A DNA stretch of 64,000 nucleotides from assembly GCA_030737835.1 (NCBI GenBank), contig CM060849.1, positions 19,948,074 through 20,012,073 on the forward strand. The letters run 5' to 3'. The notes under the pieces are model-generated. The model saw nothing but the letters and a program-made list of their open reading frames with translations. It had not been told where the DNA came from and did no database searches. The position numbers and the translations under genes are program-made. Source of the DNA: Acorus gramineus (Eukaryota; Streptophyta; Magnoliopsida; Acorales; Acoraceae). How positions within the stretch are numbered: the first letter of the stretch is position 1; each line of letters opens with the position of its first letter. Below are positions 22,001-55,835 of this stretch, piece by piece.

Positions 22001-25000
22001 TTTCTGCAGTTTCACACTTAGCAAAATGATTTAGGATAAAATGGGGATTGTTATGGGGATCCCTTGTTATTTCCAAGGGGCGATACAAATGTGGAGATGG
22101 TTCAAAAATTAAAGAATGGATGGGGATAGAAATCCAAAATCAAAGTTGATAAAATTAAATTTATTCCTCAGAAAGTTTGTCGGATCTTATGGCTCACACG
22201 AAATGATATGATGTTTCAAAGTAGAAACCTAATTGGGAGAATGTTTGGTTTAGTACTGTAATTTTTTTGCAAGAGTGGGGCAAGCATATTTTGGAGGTAA
22301 ACACAGTGCTAGAGGAAGTGGGGAAGGGGAGGTTCCTATTGTAATCATGTGTGGGCATCTTAGAGGCTTATTTTGACCATTCAATTTGTTTTCTTTGTGT
22401 CTTTTTTTTTTCTTCGTATTTTCTTCTCTAATTGTAAGAGGGAGATCCCTCATTTCCATTCTTATGGATGTCCTATTTGGTCCTATTTGGAACTGGAATT
22501 AGTTGTATATTTGGAATTTGTTAATCTTGATAAGTAGTTTTGTCTGATTGTGTGGCACTGATGTACACAAAAACATAGTAATTAGTTTTTGAATAAGTTA
22601 GTGGTGCCTTTTGGCCATGTTTTCTCTAGAGCGTTGTTATTTTCGGTTGACCAATGTACTGGCGAGGGAATGGTCTATCAGTGCAGTACTGCAGTACCTT
22701 GCCATACATGTTCTTTGTGGATGTTTTTATGATATTTTTGCATTGCCTATTGGATTAAGCGATAATCTTATAATGATTTCTGTTATTGTGGAGTATCATC
22801 TTTTGTTTTGATTGAGTGATAACTTATAATATGCAGGATGGTAAAGCTGTTGAGGTTGCAGGCTCACCAACTGAAAAGGCTATTCTTTCTTGGGGTGTTG
22901 AGGTATAATCATAAGGATTCATTCTTTTGTGATTTTATTCTACTATTTTCTCACTAATCCTGAAAATTTCCTTACTATCACAGCTGGGAATGAAATTTGA
23001 TGATGTGAGATCCAGATCCAGAGTTCTTCATGTTTTTCCATTCAACTCTGAGAAAAAGCGCGGAGGTGTTGCACTGCAGCTGGTACACTGATTTCAACAT
23101 CCATTATAAAATGAGTAGCCAATCTTAGATTTGACAATTTCATGTTATTCATTCTTGTTCTTGCTCATAAACTGCACTAATGAGATTTTGTACGGCATGT
23201 CTTCTAAATTATGTTTTTTGCCCTTTTTTCTTCTAAAAGGTGTCTTGATGACTTCCAGAATTGCTTTTCCTATTTTATTTTGTACGGCTTTAATATGTAG
23301 TTTTAGCCTGCTACTTTATTTGCTCGTGTAGTTTATTTTTTTCTTTTATTGTTTTTTATGCTCATATGTATGAACAAAACTATTGATTACAACTTGCTTG
23401 TATGTCCATGTTAGTGTAAAAAAATTTCTGGCGGACCAGTTGGGATATGGATTTTCTGATTTTGAGTTGCATTTCGCGTGCTTTGATAATTCCAACTGAT
23501 CTTTAATTATTGACTGCCTTGCTAGGTTTTTGGTTGAAATTATTTAGCTTGCAATGCCAATGATTAGTCCAAAAGTTTAACTTCCTAATAGAAATTTGTG
23601 GAACACTTTGAATATTTATGCTGTTTGACTTCCTAATAAAAATTTGAGGAACACTTCAAATTTTTATGGTAAATTTACAAAATCTGTACTTGAAATGCTG
23701 ATCACATTAATTTTTCAAATGTATGTTATGTGCACATATTTACAGGAAGACTCTGAGGTTCACATACACTGGAAAGGGGCTGCTGAGATAGTTCTATCCT
23801 CTTGTAAATACTGGCTTGCCACGGATGGTACTGTGAAGTCAATGGATAATAAGGTAACATTGTCCTGTTTTATCTTTTATGTTTGCGTTATATCTATCTG
23901 TTTATTTTTATTTATTGTGTATTTCCAGATAGATGAATTCAAAAAGATGATTGATGACATGGCTGCAAAGAGCTTGAGATGTGTTGCCTTTGCGTATAGA
24001 TTGTATAGCATAGAAAATATCCCAAATGAAGAGCAACGAGACCAGTGGGCTTTGCCTGAGGACGAACTAATATTTCTTGCTATCGCGGGATTAAAGGTAT
24101 GGGTGAAAAACTTGGAGATGATATTATTAAATTGGGTGTTAACTGAATATAATGTTGTGTTTACTATTGTGAACTATGTTTAACTGACGTTATCATTCTC
24201 AAGATTTCTGATGGTTTGGTGGATTCTCTCAATTGAATTTGTAGGATCCATGCCGACCTGGGGTTAAAAATGCTGTACAATTGTGCACCCATGCTGGTGT
24301 TAAGGTACACTTAACTTTTGTTCTCCAGATTTGATGATTTTTATTCTGCTTGCCAACATATTCAGATAAGTATTTCCCCTTATTTTTTGGTGATATGAAC
24401 TCAATGTTAGTTGGGATTTGGGAAAAGCGAATCACCTGCAGATCCTGTGCATCATTATTTCCTCTTACTAATACAAAAGGAATTGATATGTAGGCTTCCT
24501 AGAAAGTCTACCACATTGTTGGATTTTCCCCCCAAATGCTGCATTTAATAGAAGTTTGTTGCAGTTGAACTTTTTCATGGAATATTCAAGGGTTTGATGT
24601 AGATTTTCATGGAGACATGTAAAACATTTGTTCTTGGTATTTTTTTTAATATTGTTAGAATCACATTTGGCAGAGGCATGGGAAGGAGATGTTTAGATTG
24701 GTTGGAGACTAATGAAAATAATGAATGATTTTAGCATTTTACAGGTTTGATATGTTGCTAGACTTTATTTGAAAATATAGAATTAGAAGAAATAAATGGA
24801 ATAATGTCTATTACGTAATGGAGACCGAAAGGTCCCTTATATAGTTACAAGATGTACAAACCCTAAAACAGAAAAAGACCAAAATATCCATGACAAAAAT
24901 TTGAGTCGGGGGCGTTGCCCCTGAACCCCCGTATGCCCACAATCGGCGATTTCCCACATGGGCCTGTTGTTGAGCCTATTCCCTCCCGCCCGGGAGGGGG

Positions 25001-28813: not shown

Positions 28814-30072
28814 GTAACAAATCATAAGAGACTTGTATCATATGTGGATTGGGATATCTAGCGTTCATGGAGGATTTACTTTTGTGTTTTGTGGGTGGTT
28901 TGTCTCATCCTGTTTTGTGTGTTCCTCATTGCCTCCACTTGTGACAGCTTGGGTGTGACAGCATGGGTTTTGTTTGAATTTTCTTTGATTTAACACAGAA
29001 GGTTTATGCTTACGACGTTTCTCTTCTATGAGGAACACGTTATATAATATACTTTTCACTGTGCAGACTGAACTACTACTCTATTCTGCTGCTGGAACAG
29101 TAGTTCCAGTTTTCAAAGAAATACTATGTAGAGATATGTGATTCACATTCATACAATGGGTTCTTTAGCTGCATCTCCCGGGCATGTGATCATATCTGTT
29201 GGACTGTGTATAGTAAATGATTGACGAATTGAATCAACCGGTTTTACAGTTGCTTTGTTCCTTGGCTTTTCAGATTGGCTTAGTAGTAGAATTGTTGTTT
29301 ATATTGTGTTGCATTACTATAAAAGCAAATTTTTGAGATCCAACTGAATCGTATTATTATGAAACAATAGCTGCAACAAAGTCACTCCAATTCATCTTAT
29401 TTGGTGGGGGTGCTAGCGGTCCGGTTGGCATCCCGTTTACATGTGACCATCGTCACTCTTTGGTGTTTGCTTGCTTTATATTTTCAAGTCAATCTATTAT
29501 CTCTCACCACCTATTCAAAGTTGTAACCACTCGTTTAGTGATAGAAGTGATTTTAACAATTTCTATCTTGTTTTAAAAAATAAATAACTGCAACAAAGAA
29601 TCTCTTTAAGTTTTGTGGCTCTTATTTCTATGGTTGCCTTCTTGTTTAATAACTAGAGAAAAAATTAGGTACCTCTTGATAAAAATCTAAGAAAACGATT
29701 CATGTGACAAGTGTTCTTACTGTTGGTGATGGACATTGAACAATGCAGCCTCTGCTGTTTGGATCAGTTCTGTCTGTTGAGTTTTGTAGATGGTGAGCTG
29801 TGCCTGGGTCCTGTAGAGCTCGCACTCCATCTTACAATATGTTCCATCTTGAAGTCATTTAGGTGTGTTTGGTTCGGCTTAATATTGCAATTCAAAATAA
29901 GTAAATAAAACTTTTTTGGGATTTTTATTTTTAAGTCCTCAGAAAGCATCATATTTAGTGATCGATCCCTCCCTTCTTCATATTTAGGTTTTAGTCTTCA
30001 AATTTAAATGATAGTTTCTTTTTAGTCCTTGAGAGTGACCTATCTATAAATTATTTAATTTACTTTTTAGTC
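28814..30072 (+). other. 3' UTR of the ATPase gene and following spacer
   Basis: The TGA ends at 28813. The next few hundred bases (to perhaps 29150) are the likely 3' UTR, T-rich with GTTTTGTGTG-type elements. No clear polyadenylation signal position can be fixed. The remaining sequence to 30072 has no recognisable gene. Confidence 0.4.
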
Positions 30073-30080
30073 TCTGTGAG

Positions 30081-30425
30081 TAGGGGTGGTAAACCGGCTC
30101 GTTTGTTAAACAAGCCAAGCTGAAGCTCGAATCAAGGCTCGGCTCGGGCTCGTTTAGCTAAAAAAAATCTTGTTTAGCATTTAAAAAGTCACATTTCATA
30201 AATCACAACACCTTATACATGTGAAAGTAACATAAGTTCGGGCTCGGGCTCGGCTCGTTAACCTTTTTTCAGTTAAGTAAACGAGCTCGTCTCGGCTCGG
30301 GCTCGGCTCGTTTACAAACCGAGCTTTAAAAATTGTTCAAGCTCGGCTCGTTTGTCTAATCGAACGAGCCTGAGCGAGCTTTAACCGAGCCGAGCCCGAG
30401 CTGCTCGGCTCGTTTACCAGCCCTA
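30081..30425. mobile_element. hAT-type MITE, 345 bp, with internal GCTCGGCTCG repeats
   Basis: The left end TAGGGGTGGTAAAC and the right end (other strand) TAGGGCTGGTAAAC form the terminal inverted repeats. They are flanked by 8-bp duplications TCTGTGAG (30073-30080) and CCTGTGAG (30426-30433), one mismatch. The 8-bp size points to hAT. The interior is built from repeats of GGCTCGGGCTCG in both orientations and has no ORF. It lies about 300 bp upstream of the promoter-like site at 30712. Confidence 0.85.
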
Positions 30426-30711
30426 CCTGTGAGGGACCTATTCATGAATTATCATTTAAATCGGAGGACTAAAATCGAAGAAGAGAGGAATCAATCACTA
30501 AATGTGATGGTTTGTGGGGACTTAAAAATAAAAATCCCAAGTTTTTAATTAACGGACAAAAAGAAGAAAAAAAAACATTACTTGGTCTCCAAGAAATCGC
30601 TCTCATTTAACAGACTGGCTAATTATGATGGACGGTCCCGATTTACTCACACGAAAATCTTAGAATATCCATCACAACGGCTCTATTTTATTTTGCTGTT
30701 CCAATCAAATC

Positions 30712-30724
30712 TATATAAACCCTA
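30712..30724 (+). promoter_or_regulatory. TATA box overlapping a telo-box
   Basis: TATATAAA (30712-30719) overlaps AAACCCTA (30717-30724), the plant telo-box often found in promoters of ribosomal-protein and snoRNA genes. A CT-rich leader-like stretch follows from about 30750. A nine-codon reading frame (ATG at 30792 to TGA) lies in the putative leader. No protein gene is recognised downstream, so this may drive a non-coding transcript running into the tandem array. That link is inference. Confidence 0.45.
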
Positions 30725-30998
30725 GATACAAGAATTAGTTTCCATTGTTAAGTCTCTCTCACATCTCATACGAGTCCGCCGTTCGCGGCCGATGTCGTCG
30801 TCGATGCGTCTTTTCTGACAGCTCTCTCTCTGCTGGTCCTTTTCGAGGTCTTCCTCCTCCGATGAGTGCTCTTTGTTTTTCTGATTTAATCTGTTTTTGC
30901 AGTTGTTGAATTCCTGTGTTTTTTTTTTTTCTTGTGGGAATTGAAGGGCTTCGTTGGATGGAGAGATTGAGGTCGGTAATGATCACAATGAGAATTTT

Positions 30999-31260
30999 GA
31001 GGTTTGATTTGCTGATTTTTTTAATTTGATTTTGGGATTTCAGATCTAGGTCTACTTCGGGTTGATTCTACTGCTATTTGTTCCTTATTTGAATCCTGTT
31101 TTTTAGGTTCGATTTCCTGATTTTTTAATTTAATTTTGGGATTTCAGACCTGTATTTCATTTGGATCTTGTTATTTGGTTGGTTTTTTCTTCTTCTGATG
31201 GGTTAGTTCTTCTGCGATTTGTTCCTCACTTAGGTCTTGTTTTTAGGTTAGATTTCTTCC
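30999..31260 (+). repeat. Degenerate tandem repeat, about 107 bp, 2-3 copies
   Basis: Blocks starting GAGGTTTGATTTGCTGATTT (about 31000) and TAGGTTCGATTTCCTGATTT (about 31106) share TTTTGGGATTTCAGA and TGTTCCTNACTT further on. A third partial copy starts near 31245. The setting looks like an intron after a leader exon. Confidence 0.6.
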
Positions 31261-31959
31261 TTGACCTATTGAAGCATTTTTAAGTTTTTATCATATGAGA
31301 CGCAAGTTGATGATGACACCTTGTAATAATTATTGACAGGCTCAGTAATATGACAACAACCAACTCCAATTAAGCATATTTCCTGAGATGTATTGTATAG
31401 TCGATAGAACAATCAGCCAGAAGCATTAGAGTTATGACTTATATGTATATTGCATGCATTAGAGTAAGAATATACATTTTGTATGTTGGGTTAAAAACTC
31501 AAGTAATTATTGAAGGAAGTCATATTGTGCACGTTATAAGTAGAAAAAGAGCATTTTGTGTTCTGACTTGCTAATTTACTTAGATTGATGATATCTCTGT
31601 TCTTTGAGATTTTACGATGAAGTTCATAAAGTGTAACAACTGGTGAATGGATTGGATATTGGTATATGGTTTGAATTGAAAGAGAGATTCCTTGTTAATG
31701 ATTTTCAAATCCACTTGATAATGTTACTTCTCATTGAAATCTCCAATTGACCATTAAATTGCAGAAGATATTGAGAAATCAAGTTTATTACAGAGCTAGA
31801 CCAACAGAAAATTCAATATCAAATGTTGTATTTACCAAAAGATCTATAATTTACCTGGAGAGAAAACTATGGATTTGACATATACTTTAAAATTTTAATA
31901 CAAGCATGCATTATATTTTATTTTCTTTTTCATTTCTCATTATAAATAGCATTGATTTG

Positions 31960-34900
31960 TAGGGCATCTTTTAAGTTTTTGGCTTGAATCCCGAATGTGG
32001 TGACGTAGTAGGGTAGGAAAAGTTGGTGGATACCCGATTATGGCCATCGACTTTTCTCCTCGATTGCGTCATTGAGGGTGATGGCTGTATATCGTGTTTA
32101 TGTATTGTAATCCTAATGATTTAAACTTCTTTTTTTTGTAGTTTAGCGCACTTGATTTTTAAATTATGTCATTTTCTTTTTCATTTCTCATTATAAATAG
32201 CATTGATTTTTAAGGCATCTTTTAAGTTTTTGGCTTGAATCCCGAATGTGGCGACGTAGGGTAGGAAAAGTTGGTGGAAACTAGACTATTGCCATTGACT
32301 TTCCTCCTCGATTGCATCATTGAGGGCGATGGCCATAGATTGTGTTATTTACTGCAGTCCTAGTGATTTAAACTTTTTTTTTGCAGCTTAACACTTTTGA
32401 TTTTTAAATTATGTCATTTTCATTTCCATTTCTCATTATAAATTACATTAATTTCAAAGGCATCTTTTAAGTTTTTGGCTTGAATACTGAATGTGGCGGC
32501 GTAGGGTAGGAAAAGTTGGTGGAAACCAGACCATGGCCATCGACTTTTCTCTTTGATTGCGTTGTTGAAGGTGATGGCCGTAGATCGTGTTTGTCTATTG
32601 TAGTCTTAGTGATTTAAACTTTTTTTTTTTTTGGAGTTTAAAACTTTTGATTTTTAAATTATGTTATTTTCTTTTTCATTCTCATTATAAATAACATTAA
32701 ATTTCAAAGGCATCTTTTAAGTTTTTGGCTTGAATCCTGAGTGTGGCGGCGTAGGGTAGGAAAAGTTGGTGGAAACTAGACCATGGCCATTGACTTTCCT
32801 CCTTGATTGCGTCGTTGAAGGTGATGGCCATAGATTGTGTTTGTTAACTGCAGTCCTAGCGAATTAAACTTTTTTTGTTTTTTTTTTATAGTTTAACACT
32901 TTTGATTTTTAAATTGTCATTTTCTTTTCCATTTCTCTTTATAAATAACATTAAATTTCGAAGGCGTCTTTTAAGTTTTTGGCTTGAATCCTGAATGTGG
33001 CGGCGTAGGGTAGGAAATGTTGGTGGAAACCAGACCATGGCCATCGACTTTTCTCCTTGATTGCGTCGTTGAAGGTGATGGCCGTAGATCGTGTTTGTTT
33101 ACTGCAGTCCTAGTGATTTAAATTTTTTTTTTTTTTTTGGAGTTTAACACTTTTGATTTTTAAATTATGTTATTTTCTTTTTCATTCCTCATTATAAATA
33201 ACATTAAATTTCTAAGGCATCTTTTAAGTTTTTGGCTTGAATCCTGAATTTGGCGGCGTAGGGTTGGAAAAGTTGGTGGAAACCAGACCATGGCCATTGA
33301 CTTTCCTCCTTGATTGCGTCGTTGAAGGTGATGGCCATAGATTGTGTTTGTTAACGGCAGTCCTATCGAATTAAACTTTTTTTTTTTTTTTTTTATAGTT
33401 TAACACTTTTGATTTTTAAATAATGTCATTTTCTTTTCCATTTGTCATTATAAATAACATTAATTTCTAAAGCATCTTTTAAGTTTTTGGCTTGAATCCT
33501 GAATGTGGCGGCGTAGGGTAGGAAAAGTTGGTGGAAACCAGACCATGGCCATCGACTTTTCTCCTTGATTGCGTCGTTGAAGGTGATGGCCGTAGATCGT
33601 GTTTGTTTACTGCAGTCCTAGTGATTTAAATTTTTTTTTTTTTTTGGAGTTTAACACTTTTGATTTTTAAATTATGTTATTTTCTTTTTCATTCCTCATT
33701 ATAAATAACTTTAAATTTTAAGGCATCTTTTAAGTTTTTGGCTTGAATCCTGAATTTGGCGGCGTAGGGTTGGAAAAGTTGGTGGAAACCAGACCATGGC
33801 CATTGACTTTCCTCCTTGATTGCGTCGTTGAAGGTGATGGCCATAGATTGTGTTTGTTAACTGCAGTCCTAGCGAATTAAACTTTTTTTTTTTTTTTTTT
33901 ATAGTTTTAACACTTTTGATTTTTAAATTATGTCATTTTCTTTTCCATTTCTCTTTATAAATAACATTAATTTCTAAGGCATCTTTTAAGTTTTTGGCTT
34001 GAATCCTGAATGTGGCGGCGTAGGGTAGGAAAAGTTGGTGGAAACCAGACCATGGCCATCGACTTTTCTCCTTGATTGCGTCGTTGAAGGTGATGGCCGT
34101 AGATCGTGTTTGTTTACTGCAGTCCTAGTGATTTAAATTTTTTTTTTTTTTTTGGAGTTTAACACTTTTGATTTTTAAATTATGTTATTTTCTTTTTCAT
34201 TCCTCATTATAAATAACATTAAATTTCTAAGGCATCTTTTAAGTTTTTGGCTTGAATCCTGAATTTGGCGGCGTAGGGTAGGAAAAGTTGGTGGAAACCA
34301 GACCATGGCCATTGACTTTCCTCCTTGATTGCGTCGTTGAAGGTGATGGCCATAGATTGTGTTTGTTAACTGCAGTCCTAGCGAATTAAACTTTTTTTTT
34401 TTTTTATAGTTTTAAGACTTTTGATTTTTAAATAAATTATGTCATTTTCTTTTCATTCTCATTATAAATAACATTAAATTTCTAAGGCGTCTTTTAAGTT
34501 TTTGGCTTGAATCCTGAATGTGGCGGCGTAGGGTAGGAAAAGTTGGTGGAAACCAGACCATGGCCATTGACTTTCCTCCTTGATTGCGTCGTTGAAGGTG
34601 ATGGCCGTAGATCGTGTTTGTTTACTGCAGTCCTAGTGATTTAAATTTTTTTTTTTTTTTTTATAGTTTTAACACTTTTGATTTTTAAATAATGTCATTT
34701 TCTTTTCATTTCTCATTATAAATAACATTAATTTCTAAGGCATCTTTTAAGTGTTTGGCTTGAATCCTGAATGTGGCGGCGTAGGGTAGGAAAAGTTGGT
34801 GGAAACCAGACCATGGCTATCGACTTTTCTCCTTGATTGCGTCGTTGAAGGTGATGGCCGTAGATCGTGTTTGTCTACTGCAGTCCTAGTGATTTAAACT

Positions 34901-35510
34901 TTTTTTTTTTTTTTGGAGTTTAACACTTTTGATTTTTAAATTATGTCATATTCTTTTTTATTTCTCATTATAAATACCATTAATTTCTAAGGCATCTTTT
35001 AAGTTTTTGGCTTGAATCCCGAATGTGGCGACGTAGGGTAGGAAAAGTTGATGGAACTGGCCATCGACTTTCCTCCTCAATTGCGTCGCTGAGGGTGATG
35101 GCCGTATATTGTTGGGTTGTACTCAAGTCCTAGTGATTTAAACCTTTTTTTTAGAGCACTCTTGGTTTTTTAATAACATCATTTTCTTCTAATTTTTTCA
35201 TTATAAATAGCATTGATTTCTTTAAGTCATTCGCTTGAATCCCGAATGTGGCGCGTAGGGTAGGAAAAATTGGTGGAAACCAAATTGTTACTGTCGACTT
35301 TCCTCCTCAATTGTGTCGCTGAGGGTGATGGCCGTAGATTGTGTTTGTGTACTCCAATCCTAGTGATTTAAACCTTTTTTTTTGCTATTTAACATTTTTT
35401 ATTTTATTTTTAAATTACATCATTTTCTTTTAATTTTCTCATTATAATAGCATTGATTTCTAAAACACCTTTTTAAGTCATTTGCTTGAATCCTGAATGT
35501 GGCGGCGTAG
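31960..35510 (+). repeat. Tandem array of about 14 units of roughly 250 bp, alternating A and B subtypes
   Basis: Each unit contains GGCATCTTTTAAGTTTTTGG, then CTTGAATCCTGAATGTGGC, TAGGGTAGGAAAAGTTGGTGG, GACCATGGCCAT, GGTGATGGCC, CTGCAGTCCTAG and a T run of about 9-18. Type A has CCATCGACTTTTC, GCCGTAGATCGTG and TTTGGAG after the T run. Type B has CCATTGACTTTCC, GCCATAGATTGTG and TTTATAG. The units near 32459, 32962, 33470 and 33977 are A; those near 32708, 33217, 33720 and 34230 are B. The real repeat is therefore a dimer of about 505 bp. The unit near 34486 is a B-front/A-back hybrid and the next (34738) is A. Edge units are more diverged than central ones, as expected when unequal exchange homogenises the middle. 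No ORF spans units. I do not recognise the family. Confidence 0.92.
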
Positions 35511-36720
35511 GGTAGCAATATTTGATGGATATTTTAATTTTAAGGTCTGAACTACTACTAGATCTAAGAGTGGGCCGCGGAGGATGAGGATTGTGAATAT
35601 GTTTGTTTGCTGCGATTCTAAATTGAAATAAAACATTTTTTTCGTTGCTCATAAACTTTGGGTTCCAAAGTAGCTTTGGTTTTCTACTTATCTTATTGAA
35701 TATTGTTTATTGTTATTCTTTTTTCTTGTGTCTTTCAGATCTTAGTTTCAATCTATCTCACTATTATGTTGATTTTATGTTGTAATATCTCCTTATATTT
35801 TACTATGATGATCCTAAATGATATCTTTACCTATCCAAGTGATTTATTTTTTACTTATATTTTTGCTTATCTATTATCTTTAGTGATATATTTTTTTTAC
35901 TTATCTACTTATATTTTTACTTTGATGATTCTAATTTCTAAGTGATATTTTACATATAGTTTTTAACTTGCATACTTAGTTTTTTGGCAATATTTGATGG
36001 GTATTTTACTTTTAAGATCTAAACAACTACTAGATCTAAGAGTGAGTTGCTGAGGATGATGGTTTTGAATATGTTTGTTTGCTGCAATTCTAAATGAAAT
36101 TAAACATTTTTTCACCGCGCATCAACTTAGGGTTTCAAAGTAGCTTTGGTTTTCTAATTATCTTATTGAATGTTGTTTATTTTGTTATTTTTTTCTTTTG
36201 TCTTTCAGATCTTGGTTTCATTTAGCTTTCTATTATGTTGATTCTAAGTGATAAAAAATATATTTTTTTTACTTATCTACTTATATTTATGGACAATGTT
36301 TGATAGACATTTAACATTTAGGATCAAAGCAGGGACTACTCATAGGGGACAACATGGGAAGGGAAACTAGGTAGAATCCAGAATATAAGCCATTCAACTT
36401 CTTGCGGGAGTGGGCCACCGAGGATGATGATTGTCCAGCAAAATATTTTTTTACTATTCTAAGTGATATAAAGCTTTGTTTTTTGCTGGTCATCAAAGTT
36501 GGGTTTTGAGTAGCATTGACTTCCTGCCTATGCTATTGAATATTGCTTATTTGTGTTTGTTATTCTTAGGGTTTTTCCAATCTTGGTTTTATGACTTTTA
36601 TCTATCTTGTTATTACGATGATTTTATGTGATAAAAAAATATATTTTTTAATGTATCTACTTTAGTTTTGTGGGCAATATTTGGTAGGCATTAACATTTA
36701 GGATGAAAAGCATTTGGTAG
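35511..36720 (+). repeat. Older, strongly diverged copies of the same tandem repeat
   Basis: Units beginning GGTAGCAATATTTGATGG or similar (about 35513, 35989, 36292, 36668) repeat every 300-480 bp. They share AGATCTAAGAGTG, GAGGATGATGG and TGTTTGTTTGCTGCAATTCTA. The last two blocks match GAGGGTGATGG and TGTTTGTGTACTCCAATCCTAG of the neighbouring array in the same order and spacing, so this looks like an older extension of it. One ORF here (35703-35945) is low-complexity and hydrophobic and probably chance. Confidence 0.6.
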
Positions 36721-38811
36721 TTATTTGACTTTTAGGATCAACTTGGTCATTTTAAAATTAGATTTCAAATTATTAGGCTTATGAATTTCCTTCCCCTTCA
36801 TCAGAAAAAAAGATGGTATCATCCACGCATTGAATGTGGGTGATGCACCAAATTTTATATTATTTGCTGTTTAGATGTTGAAACTAATTGTCTCTATATT
36901 TTGTTCTTGTAAGTTGCTGTTCTTGTGATGCGTTTTTAATTTTGTGGGCTAATCATAAAACCAGGAGTTGTATAAGGTTCCCGTTCCCTTACCAGCACTT
37001 GGATAAAAAGCATGATTCTCTTTATTTATCAGCGTTGTTTTAGCTTTTAATTGGCAACAACTTACTGAATTTCATAATGTTCTATTCTATATCAAGTTAC
37101 TAATGGCATTGCTTGCAGCAGGGCCCTTTTGGGTATCATTGGTAAAGGTTAGATATTCCCTTGTTGATGGATGATTTACAGGGCTGATTTATATATATGT
37201 TCTTCTGGTTACATGATAACTTTTTCCAGTATGCATGATTAAAATTGGTCTCCAATGTTTAGCTCTTGTTGTGCTTGCGGGTCAAGCCATTCTCAAAACC
37301 TACATCATATTTGATGATGGAGGAGTTTCATATTTTTGGTCAGTTGTTTACCTGTATATAATCTCTGTTATATCACCACTCAAATTGTCGATTTTGGTAA
37401 GGAAAGATATTTGGTTAATTTGATTAAATTTAATGTTTAAATGCTTCTATCATGACAATATAGCCTAATGTAAATAGCTAGAAACTACTAAATTGGAGGT
37501 TCGACATTGTTAAACAAGGCACACAATACTGAACAAAAGCTCTTTTTTGAAGTAGAGTTTCGATTGGTAACTCTTTCTTATTCATGTTTCATTTGTTTTT
37601 GGATGTAAAGATCTTAGGTGCTAAAAAAGCTTCGATTTTGTTAAGAAATTGTTTGATTTGCTAGATGTCTTATTTCCAAACCATCCTAAAAAAAGGAACA
37701 ACACAATCAAAATTGGTAGAGCAGAGAGCGATTTGTCATTTCTGCATGTGTTCAAACACACATGTTTGGCCCCAGATCGGTTCAGCATCTGTGGAACACA
37801 TGCTCTCTTGTAAGCTTGAATTCTCGTCTCTGCCCTTTGGTCCTGGTGGCACATGTCAAAGGTGAGGATCGTCCTTGAGATGGTTTGTATTCTCGTAGAT
37901 CCTATTACAAACTCATTGACATAAGTTATACTTTTATAATGTTTTTTGGGGAATTGCAAGTGGCATGTGAGTGAGTCCGTTTACTTTTTACTCTTCAAAG
38001 TTTTGGGTTTTGGGTTCTACTGAGTTCCACTGATTTCATTTACAGTTTTCTCTTCTAATTTTTGGGTTCTAATAAGTTTCATTGATTGATTATAGCTTGA
38101 AGGTTTATGAATTTTTTTGGGGGTAAATACTTCTTATTTAATGGTTAAAATCGCCAGTGAGTGTTTTTTGCCTTCTCCTGTGAGCCAGGAAGGTAAACAT
38201 TTCATTTTGATTGTGTTTTTTAATTGTTGAAATATAGGGTTTCACTTACATGATGTTTATGTTCATTGCAACCTCTCTTTCTGTGGAGCTGAGCCCAAGT
38301 ATTTTTGACAACATTTTTTTGTTGGATTTATGTTTGATATAGATCTTTGTTTGCGCTAATAATTTGTTGATAAATATATAGCATGGTAATTCAAGCGTAA
38401 AAACTTGGGTAATTTTTTACTCTGTATTATTAATATTCACAATTTTCTTATTGAAGGACAATTTGGTTTTGCATTTCAATTCTGAAACAGCTAATTTATC
38501 TTTAACCATCACATATTTTAGTGAGTTTTTTTGACAGGTCCTTAGTATTTCCTGCAACGTGTTCTTCATATTATGAATATATACTAAAAAATAATACATT
38601 GAAATTCTCGTTGGACAGAAGCACTGCCTAAAATTCTGACTAACAGGTAAATTGTCTTATATTGCACCACTTCCTTCCAAAACATATTATGAATTTATAC
38701 TAATAATAAATTTCCTCCAATGAACTCTCTAATGTCTTTTTTAGCTATCTCTCAATTCATGATTTATGTTCTTCTTTAGTTTTATATGTTTCATATTCTA
38801 TGCTCGCTAGT
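36721..38811. other. No recognised gene; possible continuation of a non-coding locus
   Basis: Several splice-site-like strings occur, such as GCTTGCAG before CAGGGCCCTTTTGG and ATTGGTAAAG|GTTAG near 37120-37150, and TTTTCCAG near 37230. A 62-codon ORF at 37235-37423 is hydrophobic and unrecognised. A short hairpin lies at 36814-36850 (TGGTATCATCCAC against GTGGGTGATGCACCA). I cannot support any protein product here. Confidence 0.35.
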
Positions 38812-38819
38812 TCTGTAAC

Positions 38820-39286
38820 CGGGGCCGGCCATGAGAATTGATTTTTTTAATGGGCCCTAGGTGAATTTTTAAAGTAGGCCCATCTTATATATCATTTTAT
38901 TTTAAGTCATAATAATATTATAAAATAGATACACAATATTTTATAATAATTTAAAAGCTTAAAAGCAACAAAATAGATTAAATTTTAATAGAATGAAAAA
39001 TTTATAAAATCATAAAAATACCTAGCACTATTTACCGGAGGGACTAGGGAGGAGAGATAGAGAGAGAGATAATTGTTATTGTGGTTGGAGAGATTTAAGG
39101 AGGGGAGAAATTTTTAAACTTGATTTTGGGAAAAATTGTGTGGTGAGAGAAACCAATTAATAAAGAAAAGTAGCACATCTCACCGTTCATTTATTTTATT
39201 CTATCGATCATGTTGTTATTGGGGCCCCTCCCTGGGTGAAGGCTCTAAGCAATTGAGTTGGTGGCCTTTGCCCAGGGCCTGCTCTG
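38820..39286. mobile_element. hAT-type MITE, 467 bp
   Basis: Flanked by a perfect 8-bp duplication TCTGTAAC (38812-38819 and 39287-39294). The ends are CGGGGCCGGCC (left) and CAGAGCAGGCC (right, other strand), decayed forms of the CAGGGCCGGCC-like termini common in plant hAT elements. The AT-rich interior has a GAGAGA run near 39055-39071 and no ORF. Confidence 0.85.
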
Positions 39287-39294
39287 TCTGTAAC

Positions 39295-41930
39295 TTTTCG
39301 AAATAGTATGAAATGCCAACAGATAATGCCTATCCAGCTTTTTTGTTGCCCGTTTAACCATGTCTTATGAATGTGTTGGTATAGTGAAATGCCTCGGTGA
39401 GCCAGACCAAACTAGAAGCGTAATGCTTGTTGGGGTTCTTGTAGTTTTTGTATATGTGGATGTTTCTTTTAATTGGGATTTACATCTGGATGTTTGTGCA
39501 GGGAATTTTTGATGATGAATACTACATCATGTGCAACCTCACGTGAGCTTAATTACTAAGGTGTCTAATCATTTCCTTTAGTTAAGGAGAACATGTGCAT
39601 CTACTCTACATTGCGTATGCATAATCATTTCTTTTAGTTAAGGAGAACATGTGCATCTACTCTGCACAGGATAGATGTAAATGATTTAATTTTGGATGGT
39701 TACAACAATTTGAGCATTTTATGAACTGAGGGAGAGCTCATTTCTATTAATTGAAGTATTAACCATGAATATTATATTGATGTTGATTTATTGTTTGGTT
39801 AGGGACGCCTATTGATAACACTTTATTTGGGGTTTGTGAGCAATTCTACCTCTTCAGTACATCAACATTTGCAAAACAGCCCATGCCAGTCTTTCCTTTT
39901 TGCTTTTAACATGGATAATACTTGACCATCAACATCTTCTTATGTTTAAGATAAGATTGTATCTGTGATACAGGGTTCCACTTAGAGACTCTTTGGAAGT
40001 AGTTGCCTTGGTGTCGGTACTTCATTTCCAAAGGTAAATGAGTACATTCCTTTTCTTTTTAGGGTTTTATATATAGAATTTGAAATGATTTTGCATTCTA
40101 AAATTTCATTTAAAACTTCTGACTTTATTTGGCTGCTTGTGAATTGACTCGCGTATTATCAAATTTTGGGTGTGTGGTTGAAGGAATGAAAGCCTTGAGA
40201 AATTTTTTTGAATAATTATTTCTGTTCATCTTAGGGGTTAACTCACATGCCTTTAATTTTCATTTATGACTTATTTGAAATTCAGACATACGATGTTGAT
40301 TGCGGATTTCTATGATGTTATCAAAAGCCTTGTATGAAATAAGTAGTGTCACCTTTTGCTTCTTACGTAAGGATTGCATTGAAATATTGCTATTTGATAA
40401 TATCTTTTGTAATGCTTAGGTCAAATCATCTTCTTCTTTTTCTTCTTCTTTTTTTTTTAATCACATGGTTGCCATATTGAAAATATATCACATGAGTAGT
40501 TTTTTTGTGGATAGTGAAGTATATTTTCTTTTCTGTTATTTGACTTTTATTATTGCTTTCTATATACTTTTATCTTAAGTTTATTTCATTTCTGTTACTT
40601 AAATTTACTTAATTTCTCTTTTTATTTTTAATCTGTTTTATGATTGTCATATTCTTGGTCACAGGTCACACACAATTGTTCATAGTACCAACATATTATC
40701 TCTTTACAATTGGTTGACCTCTCCCCTAGTAGATCCCTTAATTTCATACAACTCCCTCATTCATTTCAAATACTAAAGAACATTATTTATGAAAATATTA
40801 TATGTTAGATACTTAGATGGAGTTTAAATTTTTTAAAATAACTCCAAATAAAATATAACCTAAAATTTCTGTAATATTTGAATTTGTACTAATATTTCCA
40901 TAATTTTTGGAGACTCTTTTCCATTGATAATAACCTAATCAAATGGTTTGACCAACAGCTAGGAAACAATGACATTCCTTGCGAGCATTAATAAATTAAT
41001 ATCAACACAATGAACCAACCTAGACTTCACATTGTATTTCTGAATGTAGCCCCCCTACAGTGAAATGGCTCTGTTTGGTGCAAATGATTGAGTTTTTTCA
41101 ATCCTCCAAAGAAATGGCTCTGTTTGGTGCAAATGATTGAGTTTTTTCAATCCTCCAAAGATAAACCATGGAAACCATTTAAGTTTCTTCGTAAATGAGA
41201 ATATATTGTATGCATCCACATTTTATATAATTCTATTCTGATACTTTGTGATTGTTGTTATTTTACTAAATTTTTGCCGAAGACATCTGAATGATAGTAT
41301 GCATATTATATTAACAAACTTATTTCGAGCTACCTTGACATTGGTTGAGAGATATTTACTATTAGTTATTTCCCTATTTGCCATTAGTTGGTACCAGTCA
41401 TTTTGTATCTATTAACATGTTATTTGGAGTATGAAATTCTTGAATGTATTGCTCTATAAAAAAAACTTGCACAACTCACATGGCAATATCCATCTTCCAT
41501 TAGAATCTCATGGTTAAGATTGTCAAGAGCACTTTACAACTGATCCTTAAAATGTGTTCCTGCATTCTCTTTGCAAAAATAAAATAGTATTCTCAAAACT
41601 TGTATGAACATTTTTTTTTGTTGTTATTTTTATTCAATCATGATAAGAAGACCTACATTACCCACAAGATGTAGAAACACTTGACCACAAATTATTATGC
41701 ACTTTTAAACTTATAAGAAAATTATCAAATATCAAGGGATGCCACTATTAATCCTAATTTTAGTACCACCTTAAGTCAATTAAATCTAGTCCTAGAATGA
41801 CCTTGGAAGTTTTTACAATCAATTCAAACACTCCTCTCTTATCGAAAATTCTGTCCTTTTTATGTGTATACAACCACTAAGTTTGTCTAGGATATTTGGC
41901 ACTCTAGTGTATACAACCACTAATCTAGAT
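39295..41930. repeat. Spacer with two small duplications; no gene recognised
   Basis: A 45-bp segment beginning TAATCATTTCCTTTAG occurs at 39566-39610 and again at 39622-39666 with few differences. A 49-bp unit beginning GAAATGGCTCTGTTTGG is repeated exactly at 41062-41110 and 41111-41159. Exon-like boundaries such as TGTGCAG before GGAATTTTTGATGATG (about 39500) are seen, but the frame closes after about 15 codons. Confidence 0.45.
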
Positions 41931-43290
41931 GAAGTTTTCTTTGTTGGCAGACTGCTTTAAACAAGCTGCTCCCTACTTGTGATCGTCTATGGAAATGGAG
42001 ACTTATTCCATCTAGTCAATGTGTGTTATGCTCATCCAATGTGGAATCCTCCCCTCACCTATTTGTGCAATGTTCCTTCTCAACCTACCTTTGGACAACC
42101 ATTCTTAAATCACTGAAGCTCAAGAGAGAAAGGAAAGCTTGTTTGGGTGATTTCTTTATATAGTTCATGAAGGGGGCTATTAAGTAGGGCTGCAACTTGG
42201 CCTGGGTTGAACCTGATTTTTACAATGGTTGGGTTGACCAAATCGGGTTCGAGTTTGTCAATTCGAGTTGACTCACAAATCGGGTTGGGTTTGAGTTAGC
42301 TTACTTACAACCTGATCCAACCCAAACTCGTAAATTAATAGTTAAAAAAAAAATTCATTGTTGTTCATTATGTAGTTTCTAATTTGGGCATTCCAAATTT
42401 TAGGTAAACTTAACTAATCTTACGGGTTGGGTAAGGTTGGGTCGGGTTGGTTTATTTAATTTGCAAATCATTTTAGAAAATCGGGTTGAGTCGGGTTAGA
42501 GTTGAGCAGTTTAAAATTCGGGTTGGGTTCGGGTTGGGGTCAACCTGAACCTGACCCGCCTGAGTTGCAGCCCTACTATTAAGTGAAAGGATGATCCTTC
42601 AATTCATTTTGGCACTCACAATCTGGACATTTTGGTAAACTCGCAATGAAAATTTTTTCAAGCAATATGCTCTTTCAAAGTCAATGCTGGTGAAGAAGAT
42701 CATTCTAGCCACTTAAGTCTAGAATTTTTGGGGTGTCCATTGAGGATTCAGGCTCTCCACTATCTTTGGCTCTTTTGTCTCTCTTTGGCTTTGTCTTGGA
42801 ACCAAAGTCCACTATTTCTACTTAGTGGCTGAGTGACCACAGACTGCTTCTATTAATATCTTGGAGCTCAAATGCTTGCTGATTGGTCTGAGGCTCCAAA
42901 ATCTCTCAGGCAGTCTAATTTGGTTTGAATCAGACTCAAGTACGGCGGTTGCTTGGGGGCTAGGTAGGGGTCTCATCCTGTGGAATGCATTGAGAGATCT
43001 TTGCGAAATTCAGCACATTTCCCCTAGATTTGTAGATTGGAAGATCTCTCATGTCTATCAAGAAGGTAACTGGGTGGCAAATGCCCTTGCGGCATGGCAA
43101 TCTGAATTTGGTAGCACCTTATTCAGGCCTTCTCAACTGAATAGTGAAATTCGGGCTTTAATTGGGGAAGGCAAAGCTGGTCGTATCCTCATCAGAAAGG
43201 CTTAATGTCACAAACAATGGGGGCTGTTTAATCCTTTGAACTATGGTTCCCAAGTACTCCTTTTCCTGTGCATCAAAGTATCTGGCATTG
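41930..43290 (+). mobile_element. LINE (L1-type) 3' fragment with zinc-binding and RNase H-like regions, interrupted by a hAT MITE
   Basis: From about 41955 a frame reads LNKLLPTCDRLWKWRLIPSS, then a C-x2-C ... H-x4-C cluster typical of the zinc-binding domain after LINE reverse transcriptases. After the MITE comes a W-x-x-W...RNENFF segment. Then ORF 42861-43205 (114 codons) follows, resembling the plant RVT_3 RNase H-like domain: FESDSSTAVAW near its start and WKISHVYQEGNWVANALA near its end. Frames are broken between blocks and the 5' part (endonuclease and reverse transcriptase) is missing. The 3' end shares a terminal motif with the opposed LINE that follows. Confidence 0.72.
42185..42575. 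mobile_element. hAT-type MITE, 391 bp, inserted in the LINE fragment
   Basis: Perfect 12-bp terminal inverted repeats TAGGGCTGCAAC are flanked by a perfect 8-bp duplication CTATTAAG (42177-42184 and 42576-42583). The interior is rich in GGGTTGGGTT-type repeats on both strands and has no ORF. It splits the LINE between its zinc-binding and RNase H-like regions, so it is younger than the LINE insertion. Confidence 0.93.
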
Positions 43291-43322
43291 GTTTTTTTTT
43301 TTTAAAGGGGTACTTGGGAACC
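43245..43322. repeat. 19-bp inverted repeat at the junction of two LINE tails
   Basis: GGTTCCCAAGTACTCCTTT (43245-43263) is the inverted match, with one mismatch, of AAAGGGGTACTTGGGAACC (43304-43322). The left arm ends the plus-strand LINE fragment; the right arm ends the minus-strand LINE just before its poly(A). The simplest reading is one LINE 3'-terminal motif present twice in opposite orientation. Confidence 0.85.
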
Positions 43323-43580
43323 TCTTGCTACCCGATTTCATTTCTGATCTTGAATTACACATTCTGAAAAGGGGAGAAAAGATTATACTACAAAATAAGA
43401 CATGAGAGTAAAAAGGAACTCTTCTCCGGGTTAGAAGAGGCATCTAACCGCGAGAAGAGCCCCGCTCGCATGTTCACCCCGCGACTCGCAAGTCCCATCG
43501 CGAAAGTGGACGTCCTCCGCCTTCGTTATATGGCGGCCCCAATCCCACATACACCCACGAAACATGTCCCACATGTTTTC

Positions 43581-46500
43581 TTAGTACACGTTCGTTCCGT
43601 TGAAGACGACCTCATTTCTCGTCTTCCAGATCGTCCAAGCTCCGGCCGGGACTATGGCTTGCGAGACCACCGCATCCATGTTGTCGTCATTAGACCTCTT
43701 CATCGCTTTCCCCGCCGCCCACATGTCCTCCAATGTATGAAACGTACACTGCATTCCCGTTTGCCTCCCCACCATTGCCCAGAAATCCCGAGCCACTCTA
43801 CACGTACAAAAGAGATATACGACGGTCTCCAATTCCCCCGAGCATAAGGCACACTCGGTTGAGTCCGTGGGAGCCCATCTTGCCTAATACGCCTTCGTCA
43901 TTAGGCGTTCTAAGTATAGCAACCACATAAATACCTTGATCTTTAGTGGAACCTTTGGCCTCTAGGTTTGAACATACTTCACGTTCGACACCGCGCCCCT
44001 TGTTTGATCCGTCCTCCACCGAACATATGCACTCTTGACCGAGTGAACCCCCGAGGACTTAAACCTCCAAGACCATTGGTCCTCCTGCGTTGCCTGTAGC
44101 CTTTGTGCCTTGAGACGCTCTAACATTGTCATAAGCTGAGTGGTCTCTTCCACGCCTAGTCTTGCTCGCGAGAGCTCGATCCTCCATGACCCCTCTTCCG
44201 GTTGGTAGAATTCTGCCACCGTCCCTTCCTTCCTGTTCGCCAACCTATAAATATCAAGTGCCATGTCACAAAGTGTCTCCGCCCCGCTCCACCTATCCTT
44301 CCAAAAGTGCATCGATGCTCTGTTGCTGATCTTCCATTCTATTGCATGGTCCATGTCCTGTCAATCAGCAAACAACCCCTTACAAATTTGCGATGTGCGC
44401 GCACTCATCGCTGGCCAGCGAAGTTCGCCCATGCCCCCTCCTCCGTATCGGTCTCTCATAATTATGCTCCACAACGACACACACCCATTGAACCATCTCC
44501 ACGTCCACTTAGAAAGCAATGCCCAATTCATCAATCGAAGGTCCAACACCCCCAAGCCACCCTCCTTTTTATCGCGGCATACAGTACCCTAGTCCACCAA
44601 GTGTGTGGCCCAACGCACCTCGTCACCTCCTCTCCACAGAAACCGCCTCCTAATACGGTCCATGTGCTCGACCACCCCTACCGGTATTCTAAATACTGAA
44701 AGGTAGAAGGTGGGGAGGTTCGACAACACCGCTTGAAGAAGCGTCAGCCATCCTCCCCAGCTTAGGAGCTTCCCACGCCATCCTGCCAGTCTTCGCTCAA
44801 ACCGATCGATGAGGGGGTCCCAATGTTCCTTCTTCATGCGACCCGTGACCAGAGGTAAGCCCAGATGCTTGGTAGGGAACGCTCCTGGTGAGCAGCCCAT
44901 CCATGTCGCAAACTTGGTTTCCTCCTCCATCGTGATATGAATCCCATGCATGGTACTCTTTTGCTTGTTCAACTTGAGGCCCGAAATTAGTCCAAAACAG
45001 AAGACGATGAAGCGCAAGCCCCTAACGCTCCCACCCGATGCTTCGCTGAGCAATATAGTATCATTAGCATATTGTAACACCGTCACCTTCCTACCCGAAG
45101 GGTTGTTGGCAACGCCTGTAATCCAACCCGCCTCCTCCGCCTTCTCGCACAATCTCCTCAAGACGTTGGCCACCATCACGAACAGAATGGGTGAGGGGGT
45201 CGCCCTGCTGCAACCCCCTGTTGAGGGGAAAGAAACCTGTGACCTCCCCATTGACCACCACTGATGCGTGCACGGTGTTGATACACTGTTGGATCATCCG
45301 AATCCACCGAGCTTGGAACCCCTGTTGTGCCAGCAACTCTAGTAGAAACCCCCGAACCACGCCGTCGTATGCCTTTGCAAAATCCAATTTGAACAGCAGC
45401 CCCTTCCTTTTATCTTTGTGCAAGGACGTCACCAATTCCTAAGCCGCCATGAAGCCGTCTTGCAATAACCTCCCTGGGAGGAATGCTGATTGCGAGTCTG
45501 CCACTTGATCCCCGCACACCTCCTTTAATCAGTTAGCCATGACTTTAGCCACCATCATGTACGCCCCATTCACCAAGCAAATCGGTCTGAACTCCTCAAC
45601 ACGCATGGCGCCCTCCTTCTTTGGAATTAAGATGAAGTGCGATGCGTTCAGACATCCCACGCTTTGTGACCCTGCGTGGAATTCAGCGAACATTGCAATC
45701 ACATCCTCCTTGACAATGCTCCAATATCTTTGAAAGAAAACCAAGTCGAACCTGTCTGGACCTGGGGCCTTGTCCCCCTTTGCCTTTGCCAGCACCCTAT
45801 GAATCTCCAACTCATTAAACGGCGCCTCCAGGTAAGCACACTGCTCCTCGGTCAGCTTTGGTAGGTCCTGGTCCTCCCAAGTAGGTTTCCACCCCCTCCT
45901 TGTCTTGAATGCATTTTTAAAATGCTCCACCAATTTAGAGCTGATGTCATGTGGATCATCCCATGTCCAGCCCTCTATTTCGATTTGCACATGTGGTTCG
46001 CGCGTCTCCTTTGGCTCGCCGCTCGATGGAAAAACTTTGTGTTGTTGTTGCCCGCGCAGAGCCTTAAAGCCTTTGACTTTTGGCGCCATTCGATCTCCTC
46101 CATCTTTAGAATATCAGCAAGGTCGCCCTTGGCTCTACTCCTTGCGGCCCGTTCCTCCTCGTCAAACGTTGCCCCCTCCTCGGCCTGATCCAGGTCTTGA
46201 ATAACTCGAAGGAGTTCCCGTTTCTTCTCCGCCCTTACTGCCCCGACAGTCCTACTCCACTGCCTCAAGACTCTTTTCAACCTACGTAGCTTGAACGCCA
46301 CACGCCGAGCCCCCCGCAACCCGCTTGCGCTTGCAGTCCACGAGTTCTTGATCAACCCCTCGATCCCTTCCACTTCGCACCACCGCGACGCAAAGCGAAA
46401 GGGACCCGGCGTTGTCCTTGTCGATTTTGAGGTCAGCAAGAGAGGAATATAGTCTGAAACCACCTTCGGGAGACCCTGCAGCACATTGTTCGGATATGCA

Positions 46501-49046: not shown

Positions 49047-49090
49047 CCGTACTCTCTACCCCTCCTCTCGCCTGTCGTTATATGTATTTT

Positions 49091-55748: not shown

Positions 55749-55835
55749 TGCCGAACTGGTTTTTGTTAGGGTTTTAGTTTCAAAAGGGGACCTCTTCATG
55801 ATGGAATTATAGACGGAGACTATCATATCGACGGA
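55749..55835 (-). promoter_or_regulatory. Putative core promoter and leader of the choline monooxygenase-like gene
   Basis: On the minus strand TCTATAATTCC (TATAAT at 55811-55806) lies about 60 bp before the ATG at 55748, placing transcription start near 55780. This would exclude the upstream in-frame ATG at 55826. The site is a weak TATA match, so confidence is low. Confidence 0.3.

Follow-up and report, generated by a model that had tools for sequence, protein, structure and literature searches.

In plant snoRNA promoters, Site II motifs are the usual partner of telo boxes. Plant non-coding RNA genes described with Telo-box/Site II promoters include snoRNA clusters and snoRNA-miRNA dicistrons (PMC4660826, PMC3022908). 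No precedent for a plant hairpin-array family, or for a hairpin-array architectural RNA, was met in the literature searched, which consisted mostly of titles and the openings of abstracts. The tandem array described here lies in a 64,000-nucleotide stretch of the Acorus gramineus genome, the whole of which is referred to as the window. Judged from DNA sequence, this array and its relatives have the appearance of non-coding RNA genes of a kind not yet described.

A TATA box directly adjoining a telo box, TATATAAACCCTA, was located at 30712-30724 (+), an exact match without a second instance on the window's + strand. The telo box itself, AAACCCTA, starts at 30717, upstream of the array as in the Telo-box/Site II genes. 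TATATAAACCCTA was identical at the C6:12.97 Mb paralogue, and AAACCCTA was likewise retained by the diverged leaders of C6:12.97, C6:10.54, C6:12.03 and C9:6.84 Mb. By itself a telo box carries little weight: AAACCCTA occurs 3 times on the + strand and 6 times on the − strand of the window. The site is preceded by a promoter block (30562-30711, +) containing ATGGACGGTC and TCACAACGGCTCTA, which was kept in paralogues; TCACAACGGCTCTA was also found at C6:10.54, C6:12.03 and C9:6.84 Mb and ATGGACGGTC at C6:10.54 and C6:12.03 Mb. It is followed by a putatively transcribed leader (30725-31186, +) conserved together with the promoter, and 30562-31186 aligned with the C6:12.97 Mb paralogue at 72.5% identity. 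Inspection of the leader by eye suggested a candidate 5' splice site close to 30976 and candidate 3' splice sites among the recurrent GGGATTTCAG motifs. The Site II motif TGGGCY was absent from both strands of 29717-30900 in the window locus. The original prediction had placed the array directly downstream of the TATA plus telo-box site; the site is exact at 30712, but the array begins 1.2 kb further downstream. The proposal of a non-coding unit behind such a promoter was otherwise supported, although Site II is absent and no snoRNA was found by Rfam.

A 3' flank at 36847-37349 (+), which may be part of the gene body or its 3' end, was conserved in some paralogues. Positions 36847-37052 matched what follows the array at C7:20.28 Mb (66%, E 6e-10), with a colinear next match at 37085-37157 (74%, E 0.025), and 36984-37201 and 37200-37349 matched C5:20.67 Mb at 83% and 76%. 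At C5:20.67 Mb the adjacent matches raised the suspicion of a processed retrocopy, which after a 1-kb stretch was read there stands as a candidate only.

The array of the window (31912-35360, +) contains 14 well-kept units of ∼253 bp each, mostly of two alternating subtypes that form a ∼505-bp dimer, with near-identical copies spaced ∼506-509 bp apart. TRF reported a single array at 31920-35529 (period 253, 14.4 copies, 87% matches). A profile built from the window's own units gave 15 matches across 31912-35531, and covariance model R1, whose training set included 4 of the 14 window cores, gave 14 full units and 3 weaker ones. The predicted tandem-repeat locus and its dimer were therefore confirmed; of the 'about 18 units (14 well conserved)' first counted, the 14 were recovered and the covariance model brings the total to 17. 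The 14 hairpin cores, all on the + strand and identified by R1 (96.7-121.5 bits) and by folding, lie at 31977-32094, 32228-32342, 32473-32587, 32723-32837, 32977-33091, 33230-33344, 33485-33599, 33736-33850, 33992-34106, 34245-34359, 34500-34614, 34753-34867, 35005-35111 and 35228-35341. Older, decayed hairpin units follow on the same strand at 35482-35600 (55.4 bits), 35961-36072 (20.6 bits, E 0.0081) and 36332-36440 (27.3 bits, E 0.00012). A 19-base core pattern (≤2 mismatches) matched 11 times in the window, always inside the array, with 0 matches expected from 100 shuffles. On either strand of 31920-36720 the longest stop-free stretch was 81 codons, and no open frame of ≥110 aa overlapped the array. 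A protein-coding repeat was dropped on these grounds, in agreement with the earlier statement that the locus has no protein product.

Over the window and 14 further stretches from the same genome, 274 matches to the unit profile were obtained. Arrays or units are carried by at least 18 loci, and 8 of them have the 30562-31186 promoter/leader, complete or in part, ahead of the repeats in matching orientation: the window, C3:18.5, C1:2.9, C6:12.97, C6:10.54, C9:6.84, C6:12.03 and C6:9.77 Mb, the last with an incomplete leader 5 kb ahead of its array. Three of these (C6:10.54, C9:6.84 and C6:12.03 Mb) were recovered utilizing the leader alone as query. Profile matches numbered 15 at C3:18.5, 18 at C1:2.9, 25 at C6:12.97 and 19 at C6:9.77 Mb; C6:10.54 Mb contained 15 unit matches and the window 17 by the covariance model. 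No match to a leader of the window type was detectable in 10 of the 18 loci, some of which have another leader. Many units across the family are decayed. The view of a single locus was thus replaced by that of a dispersed family. Of the pattern that the original prediction had named as evidence against itself, a repeat scattered genome-wide as an ordinary satellite, the scatter is present but the ordinary-satellite form is not. Like a satellite, the repeat is tandem and homogenised within loci. It differs from one in its short arrays and in the gene-like context provided by the promoter/leader, whole or in part, at eight of the loci.

Each unit contains a core of ∼115 nt predicted to fold as one long, GU-rich hairpin on the sense strand of the promoter. 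This hairpin was missed in the original prediction, which had described the core as three short words. RNAalifold of 45 units gave −54.9 on the + strand against −22.1 (sd 4.4) in 30 column shuffles, and −26.7 on the − strand against −14.2 (sd 4.0). When two clades of units were folded apart the same hairpin was obtained, with 27 identical pairs of 44 and 43, and the fold of one clade predicted 83-86% standard pairs in the other, compared with a mean of 42-44% and a maximum of 57-62% for permuted partners. A further set of 56 of the 244 units was picked as mutually divergent, leaving out units <112 nt and over-sampling decayed ones. In this set 88.0% of pair cells were standard, against 41-53% with slid partners, and the covariation score was 0.246, against 0.063-0.099 slid and reached in 0 of 500 shuffles. 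Plain RNAalifold on these deliberately divergent 56 units gave only −1.7 kcal/mol and 7 pairs, a poor result which the over-sampling of decayed units may explain. Eight of nine matches from three loci outside the R1 training set scored 60-107 bits. Single units (≤5 per locus, 60 shuffles each) had average + strand z-scores of −1.5 to −3.6 in 13 of 15 loci and of −0.1 and −0.7 in the other two; the − strand was better in three loci (C7:18.9, C7:20.28 and C4:29.88 Mb). G-U pairs exceeded A-C mismatches in the +-derived register (23.7% against 3.9%) and in the 13 pairs common to the folds of both strands (13.4% against 5.9%), with the reverse in the −-derived register (8.3% against 17.1%). Since the excess depends on register, G-U excess alone is no proof of strand.

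The three words named earlier occur in the order first reported. Scored in ten-column blocks across 10 locus consensuses, conservation holds for TAGTGATTTA (0.93) and for GTGTTTGTTT (0.88) and does not extend to ACTGCAGTCC (0.61). Mean conservation was 0.85 in the hairpin core against 0.78 and 0.77 in the preceding and following blocks, and conservation was clustered within the unit (p 0.0015, variance of 12-column windows). Among the 10 consensuses the loop block GAAACCAGAC reached a mean pairwise identity of 0.98, compared with 0.81-0.88 for the arm blocks. One of the best kept segments is the apical loop, which reads GGUGGAAACCAGACYAURG in the majority of locus consensuses. The claim that some sub-blocks are more conserved than the rest is supported. 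A recurrent promoter/leader and uneven conservation within the unit between loci are not what homogenisation within a single array would yield.

Pair-breaking changes were observed 342 times against 482 expected from unpaired sites. The ratio of preserving to breaking changes, relative to expectation, rose from 1.39 on terminal branches to 2.06 on deep branches and was reached by 9 of 200 permuted-partner runs. With permuted partners as the null, the excess of pair-preserving changes was weak: on deep branches the fraction was 0.61 against 0.515, with 25 of 300 permutations as high (38 of 300 for internal branches, 55 of 300 for all branches). Pairs changed on both sides numbered 17 of 38, no higher than the 12-18 obtained with slid partners, and this was reached by 25 of 500 shuffles. 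With no more than about four deep lineages of the unit, independent evidence is limited. Selection on pairing has support, though not of a decisive kind.

Taken as a member of a dispersed plant family of telo-box-driven non-coding RNA genes, the window locus would yield a multivalent hairpin RNA; this reading is given a substantial probability, somewhat short of even. It has to be weighed against an old non-coding or dead gene family of no function, judged somewhat unlikely, in which intron or body sequence grew by unequal exchange from a founding unit that was hairpin-like by chance, and promoter and array travelled together through segmental duplication. The window, C3:18.5 and C1:2.9 Mb are indeed near-identical segmental copies, flanks included (leader of C1:2.9 Mb 98% identical to that of the window), and the homogenisation within loci, the many decayed units, the 10 of 18 loci without this leader and the only marginal permuted-partner test fit the same account. 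It is opposed by the old paralogue at C6:12.97 Mb, where the leader (72.5%) and hairpins (0.78) were kept and the ∼0.7-1 kb between them had no significant match, by the clustering of conservation within the unit, and by the depletion of breaking changes relative to unpaired sites, most of it on deep branches. A polycistronic precursor processed by Dicer-like enzymes, so that each unit releases a miRNA-like or siRNA duplex, is rather unlikely; it would make the loci a large, unrecognised family of hairpin clusters. A foldback with a 21-22-nt duplex was found in 224 of 244 units by a loose and uncontrolled test (≤5 unpaired, asymmetry ≤3). Conservation is, however, not concentrated in two arm blocks around a free loop, the apical loop being among the best kept segments, and no Rfam miRNA family reached threshold in the window or 11 other stretches.

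Rfam at the gathering threshold gave 0 matches of any kind in the window and 11 stretches of related loci, and at low threshold the matches over units were at chance level (E above 1). One low-threshold match to MIR2619 (E 6.4e-5, 35.6 bits against the 113 needed) lay not in the units but within an inverted-repeat element of L046. These searches also bear on an unrecognised snoRNA or scaRNA-type cluster under the telo-box promoter, which is very improbable. Telo boxes do mark plant snoRNA clusters in the genes described (PMC3022908, PMC4660826). In one clade of units the hairpin is followed by a CCACATT tail similar to an ACA box, and GGATGAYGG is similar to a C box. The ACA-like tail was not kept in the clade of the window, the unit is a single hairpin with no hinge, and neither C and D boxes paired with a closing stem nor C+D or H+ACA boxes conserved in all units were seen by eye in the locus consensuses; the lack of Site II in 29717-30900 points the same way. 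A transposable element or SINE-like Pol III unit, tandemly amplified, is hardly credible, even with dispersed copies, a T-run after each window unit, GGCTTGAATCC resembling a B box in 9 of 11 places and the TATA-like ATTATAAATA ahead of most window hairpins. T runs also occur inside the unit, the TATA-like motif was lost in most other locus consensuses, ARAGORN found no tRNA gene or tmRNA in the window, and an unsystematic look noticed no shared element ends. What is homologous between loci is the promoter and leader, the array and a portion of the 3' flank, with recent copies alike in their flanks too. Tandem small Pol III genes with one TATA box per unit were rejected on the same loss of the motif. 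Units as exons were rejected by eye because the T-run and AG of the window units were not kept in the other clade. A word likeness to the TPP riboswitch was dropped, Rfam giving no match, and a viral origin was dropped because viral contigs contained no exact copy of the 19-base loop pattern.

The hairpin-RNA reading can be stated as a mechanism. RNA polymerase II would transcribe the array from the telo-box promoter into a single long RNA, which would carry the hairpin many times over, with about 15 to 25 copies where a leader-bearing locus is best preserved. Repeated docking sites for an RNA-binding protein would be provided by these hairpins, chiefly by their apical loops. The transcript would then work through multivalency, as a scaffold or decoy, like the repeat-rich architectural RNAs of animals, with a dose determined by the length of the array. 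The presence of a telo box suggests that expression would accompany that of translation genes in cells that are growing and dividing. In its full form, a new plant family of architectural RNAs with a telo-box promoter, ∼15-25 hairpins of ∼115 nt, a near-invariant loop and multivalent protein binding, the proposal is considered unlikely as it stands. The apical loop would offer a concrete bait for a protein partner. If the loci are transcribed and protein-bound, copy number would vary the dose naturally, and a single genome would supply several old paralogues as well as recent copies for comparison. Such loci would easily be masked as repeats by ordinary annotation.

Compared with known systems, the array shares with satellite DNA its tandem, homogenised organization and higher-order dimer, and differs in occurring as short arrays in many places, 8 of at least 18 behind a whole or partial promoter/leader, with clustered conservation between loci. 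Like plant MIRNA clusters, it would place several similar foldbacks on one transcript, but its loop is conserved as well as the arms or better, its units are more numerous and no known miRNA is present. With the Telo-box/Site II genes, as far as these are described in PMC4660826 and PMC3022908, it shares a telo box AAACCCTA close to a TATA box, followed by a body that is non-coding and looks polycistronic; it differs in having no Site II motif or Rfam snoRNA and in a body made of many copies of a long hairpin. The repeats of PNCTR are described as short protein-binding motifs (PMC6224606), in contrast to the long hairpins of the array, and both PNCTR and Drosophila hsr-omega (PMC9865238) are animal RNAs, whereas the array is from a plant. 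What these tandem-repeat architectural lncRNAs would have in common with the array is one non-coding transcript with many protein-binding units, the binding being predicted in the present case. If transcribed and protein-bound, the array loci would form a plant gene family built like animal architectural RNAs, with long structured modules.

The tandem array on the forward strand of the window (31912-36440), proposed in the original prediction, was recovered by three methods. TRF placed it at 31920-35529 with 14.4 copies of 253 bp, a profile of the window's own units gave 15 matches and a covariance model built from 56 units gave 17, of which 3 were decayed. Two unit subtypes mostly alternate, giving a dimer of ∼505 bp.

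This unit array is a member of a dispersed family and not a single locus. The genome (398.6 Mb, 137 contigs) was searched with one 161-nt unit, giving at least 136 matches, with arrays on C1, C3, C4, C6, C7, C9 and C10 (loci are named by contig and position in Mb). A unit profile applied to the window and 14 other stretches gave 274 matches, 4-29 per stretch, 244 of them near full length. Subsequent searches located an additional array with at least 15 matches at C6:10.54 Mb and additional units at C9:6.84-6.85 Mb and C6:12.03 Mb. The total is at least 18 loci with arrays or units, counting three C10 stretches separately and excluding lone unit matches at C1:0.16, C10:12.67 and C51:0.02 Mb; unit and locus counts are lower bounds because the genome search scores best candidates only. 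Recent copies of the window locus, flanks included, lie at C3:18.5 and C1:2.9 Mb; their identity outside the array is mostly 95-100% in 150-base steps and 83-94% in a few. The segmental duplication spans 29900-43646 and is interrupted by insertions; the C3:18.5 Mb copy, 1.47 Mb distant, reaches at least window position 43646 and the C1:2.93 Mb copy at least 38927.

Three units from each locus, 45 in all, were aligned and folded with RNAalifold, using 30 column shuffles as control. The promoter strand gave -54.9 kcal/mol against a shuffle mean of -22.1 (sd 4.4), and the opposite strand -26.7 against -14.2 (sd 4.0). As outlined from consensuses and folds, the hairpin has a base of UGGCU-UGA-AUCC / GGAU-GAY-GGCCA with an internal loop, GUGGU/ACCGC above it, and a long stem capped by the loop GGUGGAAACCAGACYAURGCC. 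In a 56-unit alignment from 15 loci, built without regard to structure, standard pairs occupied 88.0% of 2100 pair cells (41-53% with slid partners). The covariation score was 0.246 (slid 0.063-0.099; 0 of 500 shuffles as high), and 17 of 38 pairs had changed on both sides (slid range 12-18; 25 of 500 shuffles as high). Folding the six window-like loci separately from the remaining nine produced the same hairpin in both groups, with 27 identical pairs (of 44 and 43). Each clade's fold predicted 83-86% standard pairs in the other against a mean of 42-44% with permuted partners, an agreement that is partly shared sequence because the clades are about 80% identical.

On three unseen loci the covariance model scored 60-107 bits in 8 of 9 matches and 26 in the ninth. 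Eight units from unseen loci were folded singly and inspected by eye; five retain the long hairpin, which is partial or absent in L046:2437, L034:2740 and L045:2588 (further stretches of this genome). The first C6:10.54 Mb unit folded at -48.3 kcal/mol. Plain RNAalifold on the divergent 56-unit set gave just 7 pairs. Mean single-unit z for the six window-like loci was -1.5 to -2.5 on the sense strand versus -0.03 to -0.7 on the other; most non-window-like loci fold on both strands, the other strand scoring better in three.

Evidence on selection for the fold is mixed. In a 244-unit tree, 342 pair-breaking changes were observed against 482 predicted from unpaired sites, and pair-preserving changes were not depleted (385 against 372); a repeat tally gave similar totals. 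The preserve/break ratio relative to expectation rose with branch depth (terminal 1.39, internal 1.58, deep 2.06), and the overall ratio was reached by 9 of 200 permuted structures. Scored against permuted partners, pair-preserving changes were in slight excess: 0.545 versus 0.516 for all branches together (reached in 55 of 300 permutations), 0.571 versus 0.520 for internal branches (38 of 300) and 0.611 versus 0.515 for deep branches (25 of 300). These tests have limited power, as the unit resolves into some four deep lineages. Between-locus conservation is clustered inside the unit (variance test, p 0.0015), at 0.85 in the hairpin, 0.78 in the upstream block and 0.77 in the downstream block. 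It is highest in the apical loop and in GGCTTGAATCC, 0.97 over 12 columns, although a peak of that height is unremarkable in column shuffles (p 0.24).

The promoter and leader (30562-31186, forward strand) are 72.5% identical to the C6:12.97 Mb locus, where an array also lies downstream; the ∼0.7-1 kb separating leader from array gave no significant match between the two. Used by itself as a genome query, the leader matched at least 37 times, with several matches to a locus, and the loci it found at C6:10.54, C9:6.84 and C6:12.03 Mb carry same-orientation units downstream. Leader and units thus occur in constant order and orientation in eight loci: the window, C3:18.5, C1:2.9, C6:12.97, C6:10.54, C9:6.84, C6:12.03 and C6:9.77 Mb, the last with an incomplete leader that lies 5 kb ahead of its array. 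TATATAAACCCTA is identical in the window and C6:12.97 Mb. The telo box is retained next to a TATA-like word at C6:12.03 and C9:6.84 Mb and without one at C6:10.54 Mb; TCACAACGGCTCTA is common to all five. Near the arrays of ten of the 18 loci, no leader of window type was detected by the leader search. A different leader, likewise containing an ATATAAG word and a telo box, precedes the first unit by about 3 kb at both C6:12.18 and C3:23.5 Mb. At C7:18.9 Mb a telo box and a leader of a third type lie about 0.7 kb upstream, and C10 has two short promoter matches in a direction incompatible with its arrays. Eleven further leader-matching loci (L035-L044, L048), with no unit within ∼3 kb, resemble the leader's inner part only, some also a piece near 30.85 kb. 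The putative leader-intron sequence at 30995-31212, with a repeated GGGATTTCAG motif, recurs at about 13 other places on contigs C2, C3, C4, C5, C7, C8, C32 and C77, and the 11 examined carry no hairpin units in ∼3 kb; it is a wider repeat or gene family.

The 3' flank is in part conserved: 36847-37052 is 66% identical to sequence past the C7:20.28 Mb array and is followed by a weak colinear match, and 36984-37349 is 76-83% identical to C5:20.67 Mb. At C5:20.67 Mb (L049:1-1001) a stretch like 35692-35781 abuts one like 36984-37349, skipping 1.2 kb; this may be a deletion or a spliced copy. By search coordinates the same junction occurs at C5:20.63 Mb and two C108 places.

Just upstream of the promoter lies a MITE-like element (29916-30540) with inverted arms of 72 and 33 nt, 86% and 82% complementary; by eye, a GGCTCG-rich element is nested in it at about 30063-30425. 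A separate inverted-repeat element (L046:793-977) gave a MIR2619 match under threshold. LINE-type retroelement remains with long frames on both strands occupy 42837-49055, with RVT_3 at 42837-43202 (+) and a weak RVT_1 match below cutoff at 44592-45293 (-). The predicted P-type Ca-ATPase gene was confirmed by Cation_ATPase_N at 17335-17721, within forward-strand exons spanning 17335-24183 that also hold a below-cutoff Cation_ATPase match (23629-24180). For the gene called CMO-like in the original prediction (52784-55889), frame-by-frame search gave no Pfam match in the minus frames 52784-53242 and 55401-55889 and did not confirm that name.

The order of promoter, leader, array and partial 3' flank, retained across paralogues in which intervening similarity is lost, reads as that of a gene. 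No protein product is apparent at the array locus, which would instead yield a long RNA carrying many copies of one hairpin, whose loop would be read by a protein or RNA. We tentatively prefer an array RNA acting as a multivalent scaffold or decoy, each step from transcription onward being conjectural. Processing of the array RNA into Dicer products, as a small-RNA precursor, is improbable: the loop is conserved at least as well as the arms, which makes a loop-reading partner likelier. Non-functional expansion of the array is somewhat unlikely, the scaffold or decoy being preferred over it too because of loop conservation.

Telo-box plus Site II promoters are described as marking plant ribosomal-protein and snoRNA genes, and as having led to novel Arabidopsis ncRNAs, 16 without relatives (PMC4660826, PMC3022908). 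The window locus has the telo box and TATA in common with such genes but differs in having no Site II motif in its promoter, and Rfam gave no snoRNA identity there. A narrow check of the literature at title and abstract level found no description of a hairpin-array family. Among animal repeat RNAs, PNCTR is described as binding one protein in many copies (PMC6224606); the hairpin array would be a structural analogue of such RNAs, not a relative.
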